The notes under the pieces were generated by a model. That model was given only the letters and a program-made list of their open reading frames with translations, made no database searches and was not told the DNA's origin. From Actinomycetota bacterium (GTDB lineage: Bacteria > Actinomycetota > Acidimicrobiia > Acidimicrobiales > AC-9), in the NCBI GenBank assembly GCA_005888295.1, contig VAWP01000049.1, positions 1 through 33,833 of the forward strand: a stretch of 33,833 nt of DNA, in the 5' to 3' direction. Of this stretch, positions 16,349 to 31,528 are shown piece after piece; position 1 is the stretch's first letter; each line of letters starts with the position of its first letter. The translations under genes and the position numbers were made by a program.

Positions 16349-18202
16349 GTGACGGGCGTGAAGGGGGGTAGCCGGACCGGGCGTCAGCAAGCGGTCTCGC
16401 GTCGACTGGCCTTCCTCCTCGCCGCGAGCCAGTCGGTGGCGGCCCGCCTCGACGAGGACGACGCCCTGGATGCCTTCGCCCGCATCGCCGTCACGGCGAT
16501 GGCCGACTTGTGCATCATCGACGTGCGCGACGTCGACGGTGGCCTCCGCCGGGCTGCCGTCGCACACGCGGACCGCGACGTCGAGGCGTCGGTACGTGAG
16601 GCATTGCGCCGGTGGCCACCTGATCCGACGGGACGGCACCCGGCAGCCGAGGCGCTGCGTACCGGACAGACGCAGCGAGCCGATGAGCTGCCCCCGGGGC
16701 TGCTCGACACGCCGACACCTGACCCGGACGCGGCCCGGCTCCTGCCGGAGCTGGGTCTCTGCTCGTACCTCGCCGTGCCCCTGACCGCTCGGGGTCACAC
16801 GCTCGGGACCGTCCTGCTCTCCGGCACCACCGGGCGGGCGTTCGGTCCCGACGACGTCGACGTCGCCGAGGACGTCGCCCAACTGGCCGCGTTGGCTGTC
16901 GACAACGCGCGCCTCGTCGCCGACGAGCGAGCAGCGCGGGAAGGAGCCGAGGCGGCCCGAGCCCGGGTCTCCCTCCTGGCCGAGGCGACGAGCGTGCTCA
17001 CCGAGACGCTCGACCCCAACGCAGCCCTCGAGCGTCTCGCCGAACTGCTCGTGCCGGGTCTGGCCGACTGGTGCCGGGTCGACCTGTGCGACGAGGAGAT
17101 CGGCGTACGGCGCGCGGCGATGACCCACGTCGATCCGGCGACCGCGGCCGCGGTGAGCGCCGTCGAAGAGGGCGTGCCGGTCGATCCGACCGGTGACGCG
17201 CCCGTGGCCCGGGTGCTGCGAAGCGGACGCCCCCTCCTGCTCGCGGAGACGAGCGACGACGTCCTCGTGGCCAGCGCCCGCACCCAGGACCAGCTCGACG
17301 TCTACCGGTCTCTCGGTCTGCGCTCGCTCCTCGTCGTACCGCTCGTCGCCCGGGGGGACGTGCTCGGCACCCTGACGCTCGGCTCGGCGGTCTCCGGACG
17401 TCGCTTCGACGACGACGATGTGGCCCTCGGTCGCGACCTGGGTCGGCGGGCGGGACTGGCCATCGACAACGCTCGCATGTACCAACAGGAGCATCGGACC
17501 GCGGCGGTCCTCCAGCGGGCGCTGCTGCCCAGGCACCTGTCCACCGTCCCGGGCCTGGCCCTGGCCGCCCGCTACCTGCCGGCCACGACCGGCGCCGAGG
17601 TCGGGGGGGACTGGTACGACGTCCTGGCCCTGGCCGACGGTCGGGTCGGGCTGGTCATCGGGGACGTGGTGGGCCATGACATCGAAGCCGCCGGCGTGAT
17701 GGGGACCCTGCGCCATGCCCTGCGGGCCTACGCCTGGATCGATGGCCGTCCCGCGTCGGTGATCCGTCGAGTCGACGAGCTCGCCCTCGGACCGGAGCCC
17801 TGCGCGCTGGCCACGCTCATCTACGCCACCTACGACCCTTCCCGGCACACCCTGGCGTGGAGCAGCGCCGGGCATCCTCCCCCGCTCGTCGTGCGCCCGG
17901 GATCGGGGGCGGAGTACCTGCTCGGCGCCAACTCGACACTCGTCGGCGTCGGACCGGACGTCGAGCGCACCCAGCGGGAGGTGACCCTGGACGTCGGCGC
18001 GACGGTGGTGCTCTACACCGACGGCCTCGTCGAGACGAGGGAGAGCTCCCTGACCGACGGGTTGGACCGCCTGGCGGCCCTGGCCGAGAGCGGGTCCTCC
18101 GAGGCACCCGACGACCTCGTCGACCGGCTCCTGGCCGACGTGCTGGCTGCCGAGCAGCGCAAGGACGACGTCGCCATCCTGGTGGCGAAGGTCGTCAACT
18201 GA
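16349..18202 (+). CDS. GAF-GAF-SpoIIE (PP2C-type) serine phosphatase
   Basis: Two GAF-like blocks then LQRALLPRHL...GAEVGGDWYDVLAL...GDVVGHDIEAA...LYTDGLVE...KDDVAILVAKV. Confidence 0.88.
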   Translation: MTGVKGGSRTGRQQAVSRRLAFLLAASQSVAARLDEDDALDAFARIAVTAMADLCIIDVRDVDGGLRRAAVAHADRDVEASVREALRRWPPDPTGRHPAAEALRTGQTQRADELPPGLLDTPTPDPDAARLLPELGLCSYLAVPLTARGHTLGTVLLSGTTGRAFGPDDVDVAEDVAQLAALAVDNARLVADERAAREGAEAARARVSLLAEATSVLTETLDPNAALERLAELLVPGLADWCRVDLCDEEIGVRRAAMTHVDPATAAAVSAVEEGVPVDPTGDAPVARVLRSGRPLLLAETSDDVLVASARTQDQLDVYRSLGLRSLLVVPLVARGDVLGTLTLGSAVSGRRFDDDDVALGRDLGRRAGLAIDNARMYQQEHRTAAVLQRALLPRHLSTVPGLALAARYLPATTGAEVGGDWYDVLALADGRVGLVIGDVVGHDIEAAGVMGTLRHALRAYAWIDGRPASVIRRVDELALGPEPCALATLIYATYDPSRHTLAWSSAGHPPPLVVRPGSGAEYLLGANSTLVGVGPDVERTQREVTLDVGATVVLYTDGLVETRESSLTDGLDRLAALAESGSSEAPDDLVDRLLADVLAAEQRKDDVAILVAKVVN

Positions 18203-29189: not shown

Positions 29190-30524
29190 TCAGGCTGTGG
29201 CCGCGAACAGCTGCCAGCGCCCTGGAACACCCTTCAGCTCGTGCTCTCCCCGGTCGTCGAACTCGAGCCCCGAGCCCACCACGAGGTCGGTCACCGTCCT
29301 GGAGACAAGGACCTCGCCAGCCTGAGCCAACCCCTCGATACGCGAGGCGATGTTCACCCCGAGGCCGGCGATGTCGTCTCCGCGTAACTCGACTTCGCCG
29401 GTGTGTACGCCCGCTCGCACCTCCACCCCTACTGCCCCAGCGCCGTCGGTGATGGCCCGGGCGCACCGTACCGACCGCGCGGGGCCATCGAAGGTCGCCA
29501 GTACGCCGTCGCCAGTCGTCTTCACGAGCCGACCGCCGTATCGCTCCACCTGACGCCGGATCAAGGCGTCGTGTCGATTGAGCAGAACCCTCCAGGCCTT
29601 GTCTCCGAGCTCGACGGCCTGGCGCGTCGAAGCGACGATGTCGGTGAAGAGAACGCTGGCGAGCACCCGGTCCGGTTCGGGCACCGAGCGGGCACCGGTG
29701 AGGAACTCCTCGGTCTCGTCAAGGATCTGATCGGTATCTTCGGTCCACCAGAAGTGATCGGTGCCCGGGAGCTCGACCAGCCGGGCACCTTCGATGTGAT
29801 CGGCGAGGTATTGGCCGTGCGCCAATGGCACCATACGGTCCCCGATCCGGTGCATCACGAGGGTCGGTGCGTGCACCAACGGAAGCGCCGCTCGGACGTC
29901 GACCTCGAGGTGCGAGGTCATCAGGGCCACGGCCGCTCCCGGGCTCGCACCCAGTCGCTGGAGGCGACCAAACGACTCTCGTACGGCGGAGTCGTGCGCA
30001 ACGCTCGGAGCCCAAGCACTCAGCCCGACTCCCGTTCCCCAACTGGGCGCGAGGTACTGCGCGAACTGATGGACCAGCTCGGTCGGGACCCCGATCAGGT
30101 AATCGGGACAGGCCGTCATGCGGGCGTACGCGCCCAAGAGAACCAGCCCCCTTGTCCGCTCGGGATGGGCGGCGGCGAAGACGAGGGCCATGGGTCCGCC
30201 TTCTGACACCGCGAGAATGGCTGCTTGCTCGGACCCGGCCGCCTGCATGACCGCCTCGATGTCGAGCATCCGGCGGTCGACGTCGGGCAGTCGCTCAGTT
30301 CGGTCGGACATACCAGTGCCGCGCTTGTCGAAGATGATCACGCGGGAGAACGACCCGAGCCGGCGAAGGGCCCGAGATATGGCTTCGTCCTCCCATAGGA
30401 GCTCGACGTGTGAGATGAAGCCTGGGATCACGACGAGATCGAAGGGACCGTCGCCGAAGACCTGGTACGCAACGTGGACACCGTCGTCGGCCTTGGCGTA
30501 ATGGGTCGCCGGCGCCCCGTCCAC
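29190..30524 (-). CDS. Alpha/beta hydrolase fused to class III adenylate/guanylate cyclase domain
   Basis: SEGGPMALVFAAAHPER hydrolase elbow; VLFTDIVASTRQA, KTTGDGVLATFDGP, GVNIASRIEGLA cyclase motifs. Confidence 0.88.
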   Translation of the reverse strand: MDGAPATHYAKADDGVHVAYQVFGDGPFDLVVIPGFISHVELLWEDEAISRALRRLGSFSRVIIFDKRGTGMSDRTERLPDVDRRMLDIEAVMQAAGSEQAAILAVSEGGPMALVFAAAHPERTRGLVLLGAYARMTACPDYLIGVPTELVHQFAQYLAPSWGTGVGLSAWAPSVAHDSAVRESFGRLQRLGASPGAAVALMTSHLEVDVRAALPLVHAPTLVMHRIGDRMVPLAHGQYLADHIEGARLVELPGTDHFWWTEDTDQILDETEEFLTGARSVPEPDRVLASVLFTDIVASTRQAVELGDKAWRVLLNRHDALIRRQVERYGGRLVKTTGDGVLATFDGPARSVRCARAITDGAGAVGVEVRAGVHTGEVELRGDDIAGLGVNIASRIEGLAQAGEVLVSRTVTDLVVGSGLEFDDRGEHELKGVPGRWQLFAATA

Positions 30525-30675
30525 GCGACCATTTGAGCATGATCCGAAGCTGGGCGCGGCTAGAGAGCGCGTCAATGGCGGATGTCCGCCGTCGACCGTC
30601 CCGAGCCGTGGGCACCGCCCGATGCACCAGGTCACCGCTGGCCTCGTACACAGCAGCGGCACTGGTAGGATGAGT

Positions 30676-30777
30676 GACGAAGGGGAGTAGTCCTCCGCCG
30701 CTCGATCGACACGCTGGGACCAGGTGGCCCCCGGTCAGCGGGCTCGGCAGCCACGCCGAGTGGACGAGACCTTCGGC
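30676..30777 (+). ncRNA. yybP-ykoY-type (Mn2+) riboswitch aptamer
   Basis: CGAAGG (30678-30683) pairs with CCTTCG (30770-30775); GGGGAGTAG at the 5' strand and GGACGAGACCTTCG at the 3' strand match yybP-ykoY conserved elements; internal CTCGG/CCGAG hairpin; upstream of cation transporter gene. Confidence 0.8.
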
Positions 30778-30809
30778 AGGCACCCACGTGCCGGGCCGAG
30801 GGCATTCCC

Positions 30810-30838
30810 CTCTCCTCCGGCACCAGACAGGAGGAGAG
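30810..30838 (+). promoter_or_regulatory. Shine-Dalgarno-sequestering hairpin (riboswitch expression platform)
   Basis: CTCTCCTCC (30810-30818) perfectly complementary to GGAGGAGAG (30830-30838), directly 5' of ATG 30839. Confidence 0.75.
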
Positions 30839-31528
30839 ATGGTCGAGGCGCCCAAGGCCGCAGAGGTCACCTCCGAGCGCGCTCGCGGGCTGCAACGACT
30901 GGGGCGGCATCTCGAATACGCCACAACCGCTTGGAACAGCTTGGAGGCAGTTGTGGCCATCGCCAGCGGGGTGGCCGCCAACTCGCTTGCACTCGTCGCT
31001 TTTGGCCTCGACTCCTGCATAGAAGTCTTCGCGTCACTCGTGGTCCTATGGCACCTGGGCGGCGCCGCCGAAGACGCCGACCCTCAGCGAGCGCGGCGAG
31101 GCTTGCGCTTGATCGCGGCAGCGTTCGCGGTCCTGGGCCTCTATCTGGTGGCCGAGGCGGCCAACGGGCTGGTCGCTCGGACCCGACCGGAGTCCTCACC
31201 AATCGGTGTCGGGTTCCTCGCCGCTACGGTCGTCGTGATGTTCCTCCTGGCCAGGGCCAAGCGCCGCACCGGTTTGGCTCTCGGCAATCGGCCGCTCGTG
31301 GCCAACGGGTCCATGACCTTCATCGACGGCTGTCTCGCAGCTGGCGTCCTCGTTGCGCTTGCCGTTCAGATGGTCGAGGGTTGGTGGTGGGCCGACCCCG
31401 TCGCCGCGGGCATCGTGGCCGCCGTGGCCCTCAACGAGGCGCGCGAGGTGTGGGCCCAGGGCAGGTCGGTTACCCCGTCCCGGGGGACCCGCTCACCCTC
31501 GACAGCCAGGACAAGGGGCGCATCATGA
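30839..31528 (+). CDS. Cation diffusion facilitator-like transporter (short form)
   Basis: Multiple TMs; NSLALVAFGLDSCIEVFASLVVLW, ANGSMTFIDGCLAAGVL, WWADPVAAGIVAAVAL typical of CDF TM2/TM5/TM6. Confidence 0.75.
   Translation: MVEAPKAAEVTSERARGLQRLGRHLEYATTAWNSLEAVVAIASGVAANSLALVAFGLDSCIEVFASLVVLWHLGGAAEDADPQRARRGLRLIAAAFAVLGLYLVAEAANGLVARTRPESSPIGVGFLAATVVVMFLLARAKRRTGLALGNRPLVANGSMTFIDGCLAAGVLVALAVQMVEGWWWADPVAAGIVAAVALNEAREVWAQGRSVTPSRGTRSPSTARTRGAS

Follow-up and report, generated by a model that had tools for sequence, protein, structure and literature searches.

Introduction

Riboswitches of the yybP-ykoY class sense Mn2+. In the crystal structure from X. oryzae the 7-nt L3 element reads ACAUACU, and its third base, A48, contacts Mn2+ through N7 (PMC6754395). 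UPF0016 genes are a known target of the class, in 328 of 333 strains (PMC7380456). The class is already on record in actinobacteria, where leaders in Corynebacterium were found with an older Rfam model (PMC3890552). Here we describe the leader of a CDF transporter gene in a stretch of 33,833 nucleotides from an Actinomycetota bacterium (the window). This leader is very probably a compact yybP-ykoY Mn2+ riboswitch without P2, in which high Mn2+ would turn translation on and lead to export of the metal. It provides a Mn2+ prediction for a CDF transporter that previously had no assigned substrate.

Results

An element upstream of a CDF gene and its relatives

The element lies at 30678-30775 and ends 63 nt before the ATG of the CDF gene at 30839; it and all features below are on the forward strand unless stated otherwise. 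An earlier note on this DNA had described a riboswitch candidate here from its letters. The stretches that it quoted are in place (CGAAGGGGAGTAG at 30678-30690 and GGACGAGACCTTCG at 30762-30775), and so are both pairings that it named, CGAAGG with CCTTCG as the closing helix (30678-30683 and 30770-30775) and CTCGG with CCGAG as an internal arm (30743-30747 and 30756-30760). A 7-nt bulge, ACACGCT (30709-30715), which is the counterpart of L3, was absent from that description. In the 3.7-Mb genome, the stretch AAGGGGAGTAG is found at this place only.

A search for the signature GGGGAGTAG...GACGAGACC in 395 genomes of the taxonomic class found true copies in two other genomes, L004 and L006/L009. 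These copies share the element ends and also an inner stretch, GATCGACACGCTGG...CCCGGTC, which the earlier description did not name. The locus of a CDF ortholog in the same genus, L011, also carries the element. The copy at L012 is cut by the contig end, which leaves just its 3' half. The pattern matches L003, L005, L007 and L008 have no L3 and were discarded as chance matches. A covariance model built from four copies (R1; window, L004, L006 and L011) matched 57 of 397 phylum genomes at E<=0.01, and in a same-sized draw RF00080 exceeded its cut-off in one; the current library thus greatly understates how common the class is among actinobacteria. A DNA pattern search of named public genomes gave at least 118 stretches, with hosts including Streptomyces, Mycobacterium, Micromonospora, Nonomuraea, Nocardia, Rhodococcus and Acidimicrobiia.

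We aligned 39 actinobacterial copies with MAFFT, leaving out the window and the seed copies (alignment A3), and the covariance model built from it, R2, is therefore independent of the window and the seeds. R2 gave 79-89 bits on L006, L004 and L011, out of sample. R1 scored the window element at 100.6 bits, an in-sample value, and R2 scored it at 74.5 bits (E 1.6e-15 genome-wide), its sole match in the genome up to E = 1. A second R1 match in the window, at 17351-17429 (24.7 bits), lies inside a coding gene and reaches just 14.7 bits with R2; it was rejected. A genome of the same genus has a second R2 match (G395:C134:3222-3310), in contrast to the single match in the window's own genome, and genome G851, of the same order, has six.

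A resemblance due to chance, or to a DNA or protein-coding signal, has a negligible probability. It could draw on a GTG at 30674, which is in frame and reads through the element, and on the single-sequence fold, which is not special (z -0.39) and has a minimum free energy structure other than the aptamer. However, AAGGGGAGTAG is unique in the genome and R2 reaches its score without any other match there, so chance resemblance is unlikely; compensatory changes across genomes were found, and the promoter and target genes are conserved. The presence of a structured element in the window, beyond what chance would give, is thus confirmed.

Folding of the aptamer

In 78 aligned copies, 97.1% of the cells were paired compared with 82.5% in shuffles, both sides had changed in 17 of 23 pairs compared with 8.8 in shuffles, and the signal was lost when the partner was slid by 1-3 columns. 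This alignment had been fitted to the model, and A3 was therefore folded without guidance as a separate test. RNAalifold returned P1.1 (6 bp), L1, P1.2 (4 bp), P3 (8 bp) with the 7-nt bulge, P3.1 (5 bp) and P4. The consensus of the 39 copies contains no P2.

In the window, the 5' strand of the switch helix P1.1 (30678-30683) pairs with 30770-30775; 97.0% of its cells are paired, and both sides have changed in five of its six pairs among the 78 copies. The 5' strand of L1, GGAGTA (30684-30689), faces GAGA (30766-30769). L1 is conserved, being invariant in all 39 copies of A3, and agrees with that of E. coli mntP. P1.2 joins GTCC (30690-30693) to GGAC (30762-30765), with 98.7% of cells paired and covariation between C-G and U-A. 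The P3 arm (30698-30741) is composed of CCGCT/AGCGG and GATCG/CGGTC on either side of L3, is part of the RNAalifold consensus and shows both-side changes; P3.1 (30716-30731) caps it. The L3 bulge at 30709-30715 is in register in both the RF00080 and E. coli alignments. The P4 hairpin, CTCGG...CCGAG (30743-30760), has both-side changes in all four modelled pairs.

GGGGAGTAG and GACA stand 16-20 nt apart in each of the 125 copies. P1.2, P3 and a P2 hairpin would not all fit into a linker of this length, so the junction of the compact copies is probably three-way instead of four-way, with P2 missing.

Relation to RF00080 and other RNA families

An RF00080 search had been suggested as a check, and it did not find the element: neither the window nor the rest of its genome has a match at the gathering score (45 bits), or even, for the window, at E<=10. 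Genes for CDF transporters are targets of NiCo riboswitches, and the element in front of the CDF gene might in principle be a NiCo (czcD) riboswitch or belong to some other known RNA class. When all Rfam 15 families were run against the window, only a tRNA reached its gathering score and nothing meaningful appeared at E<=10, which makes this explanation very improbable.

The assignment to the yybP-ykoY class, proposed in the earlier note, gained support from homology to accepted members. R2 recovers L181, which scores 49.1 bits with RF00080, above the cut-off, and 48.3 bits with R2. R2 also finds the Mn2+ riboswitch of E. coli mntP, at 25.1 bits (E 1.4e-5 in 3 kb). In this alignment GGGGAGUAG, ACAUACU and GGCGAGACC fall in register, and the P2 hairpin of E. 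coli is accommodated as an insertion of 14 nt. The sibling L011 scores 19.9 bits with RF00080, which is below threshold, and its L1 and L3 are in register. The element has the L1 sequence GGGGAGUAG with the 3' strand AGACC, a 7-nt L3 bulge with the invariable A as its third base between P3 and P3.1, and, across its copies, a location upstream of cation-exporter genes, as expected for control of Mn2+ homeostasis or export. A30711 in the window corresponds to A48, the base that contacts Mn2+ in X. oryzae, and the two differences between ACACGCU and the X. oryzae sequence directly follow this conserved A. The score remains below the RF00080 gathering cut-off, and the four-way junction with P2 is missing, since the linker is too short in all 125 copies. 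For these two reasons we file the element as a class variant, not as a member of RF00080. The sequence comparison supports a putative yybP-ykoY Mn2+ riboswitch whose compact build, without P2, escapes the current Rfam model.

A second actinobacterial subgroup was also seen (L175-L180, with an aptamer near locus 1501; 1238-1332 in L179). Its L3 is of the UCAUYAC type, like that of L. lactis, and its P1.2 starts with U-A or C-G, not with G-C. At least some of these copies precede genes that look TerC-like on visual inspection of the reading frame.

Promoter and downstream leader

A probable -10 box, TAGGAT (30666-30671), has a conserved position in homologous loci: in 122 of 125 loci a TANNNT precedes GGGG at a distance of 8-24 nt, compared with 0-6 of 125 in intervals further upstream. 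The transcript probably starts at about 30677-30679. The divergent gene on the reverse strand (29190-30590) encodes an alpha/beta hydrolase fused with a guanylate/adenylate cyclase domain.

Three helices can be drawn downstream of the aptamer. A competitor hairpin of P1.1 (30770-30801, -19.4 kcal/mol) pairs the P1.1 3' strand, 30770-30777, with 30788-30801; its z value is -3.3 against shuffles in the window, and the median over 125 loci is -2.4. Energies and folds of the growing transcript indicate an anti-sequestor (30788-30823), in which GTGCCGG (30788-30794) pairs with CCGGCAC (30817-30823). While the downstream transcript is extended from about 30822 to 30830, the anti-sequestor is its best fold; the complementarity is also visible in L011. 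CCGGCAC shares positions with the strand that sequesters the Shine-Dalgarno site. This site is held in a hairpin, CTCTCCTCC/GGAGGAGAG, adjoining the ATG (30810-30838; 30810-30818 with 30830-30838, 9 bp, -17.3 kcal/mol). L011 and L152 have equivalent hairpins of altered sequence.

Without P1.1, the competitor and Shine-Dalgarno hairpins together reach -33.1, compared with -21.2 for the anti-sequestor, an advantage of about 12 kcal/mol for the OFF state. Once P1.1 has formed, the ON and OFF states are level (-57.2 and -57.5). Because the bound-state energies are nearly equal in the model, the direction of the switch is not forced by energy. Among 128 leaders none has a T5 run, which argues against intrinsic terminators, and anti-Shine-Dalgarno motifs number 59 compared with 32.7 expected from shuffles. 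Together, the energies and these leader features favour a translational ON switch, and the mutually exclusive downstream helices in the model suggest the same. Control of transcription, by Rho or by pausing, is an unlikely alternative though one with some grounds, since Rho can act without a U-run and other members of the class work on transcription (PMC11087558). The lack of T5 runs, the excess of anti-Shine-Dalgarno motifs and the enclosure of the window's own Shine-Dalgarno site in a 9-bp hairpin speak against it.

For the translational switch, we infer the following sequence of events. At high Mn2+, L1 and L3 would dock around the ion and keep the basal helix P1.1 closed. The closed P1.1 would withhold its 3' strand from 30788-30801, leaving GTGCCGG free for CCGGCAC. 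As this pairing overlaps the anti-Shine-Dalgarno strand, the ribosome site would open, translation would be ON and the metal would be exported. At low Mn2+ the competitor hairpin would form, and the CTCTCCTCC/GGAGGAGAG hairpin would shut the ribosome site. The ON direction and the translational level of control are both predictions. In mycobacterial loci (L036, L159, L160, L165, L172 and others), TCGAAAGG, which is complementary to the P1.1 3' strand, stands just before the start codon. In these loci the P1.1 3' strand thus appears capable of direct pairing with the ribosome site, which P1.1 may control without an intermediate helix.

Downstream genes and the ligand

A cation-exporter gene follows the element in all 126 loci with a readable gene: GDT1/UPF0016 in 115, a Na/Ca-exchanger-like gene in seven (L037, L053, L099, L103, L132, L144 and L145) and CDF in four. 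The gene behind L004 encodes the UPF0016/GDT1 motif ELGDKT, and L006 precedes a CDF gene. The CDF protein downstream of L105 has MntE, a Mn2+ exporter, as its nearest family, with 283.6 bits, below the NCBIfam cut-off of 500.

The same RNA class might sense another divalent ion here, Ca2+, Cd2+ or Co2+/Ni2+, by means of a shorter junction and an altered L3. The missing P2 and the change from ACAUACU to ACACGCU in the window fit such a shift, as do the seven Na/Ca-exchanger-like targets, and the three-way Streptococcus mgtA riboswitch reportedly binds Ca2+ more tightly than Mn2+ (work cited in PMC9495176). However, the Mn2+-contacting A and the 7-nt length of the bulge are retained, most targets belong to GDT1, a family of Mn2+ export, and one CDF target is nearest to MntE. 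We regard another ion as improbable, and Mn2+ as the likely ligand. The Na/Ca-exchanger genes of the seven loci may themselves be Mn2+ exporters, since the riboswitch precedes them.

The CDF gene of the window (30839-31528) encodes a short protein of 229 aa. The earlier call of a CDF-like transporter holds: PF01545 (Cation_efflux) matches with 49.2 bits (E 7e-13) against a cut-off of 26.6. The protein has weak similarity to MntE and FieF, and no C-terminal ZT_dimer domain. In an alignment to FieF, its TM2 reads DSCIE and its TM5 MTFID. The metal-site residues of FieF are DxxxD in TM2 and HxxxD in TM5, and the metal site of the window protein is therefore unusual. Relatives of this CDF protein likewise have neither the usual HxxxD in TM5 nor the C-terminal domain, and two of them (L013 and L014, 63-64% identity) have no convincing riboswitch copy upstream. 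Mn2+ as the substrate of the transporter is predicted from the riboswitch alone.

Discussion

The conservation, covariation, class signatures, promoter position and target families of the element are all observed. A broader reading, to which we give an even chance, is that Actinomycetota have a widespread subclass of Mn2+ riboswitches with a three-way junction, invisible to Rfam, in which L1 and L3 dock without the coaxial P1/P2 leg, and that the branch of the window was recruited to a short CDF exporter with a divergent metal site, making a new lineage of Mn2+ efflux. The P2-less form raises the question of whether Mn2+ sensing requires the four-way junction seen in the crystal structures.

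The Streptococcus mgtA Mn2+/Ca2+ riboswitch reportedly has a three-way junction (work cited in PMC9495176), like the one proposed for the compact form, which suggests that P2 is not universal in the class; it differs in belonging to another phylum and in its P-type ATPase target. The RF00080 class (E. coli mntP, L. lactis yoaB and X. oryzae) shares with the window L1 GGGGAGUAG with GAGACC, P1.1/P1.2, P3 with the 7-nt L3 bulge and its Mn2+-contacting A, P3.1, P4 and exporter targets. In contrast, the window has no P2, a CDF target and the L3 sequence ACACGCU, and is not detected by RF00080. The yybP-ykoY leaders of Corynebacterium glutamicum are also actinobacterial and scored 43.7-49.9 bits with the older Rfam model; the one visible in RNAseq precedes terC (PMC3890552). 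The GDT1/UPF0016-linked copies of actinobacteria (Streptomyces, Mycobacterium, Micromonospora, Nonomuraea and others) agree with the window element in their compact structure, their signatures and the position of the promoter, whereas the target in the window is a CDF gene.
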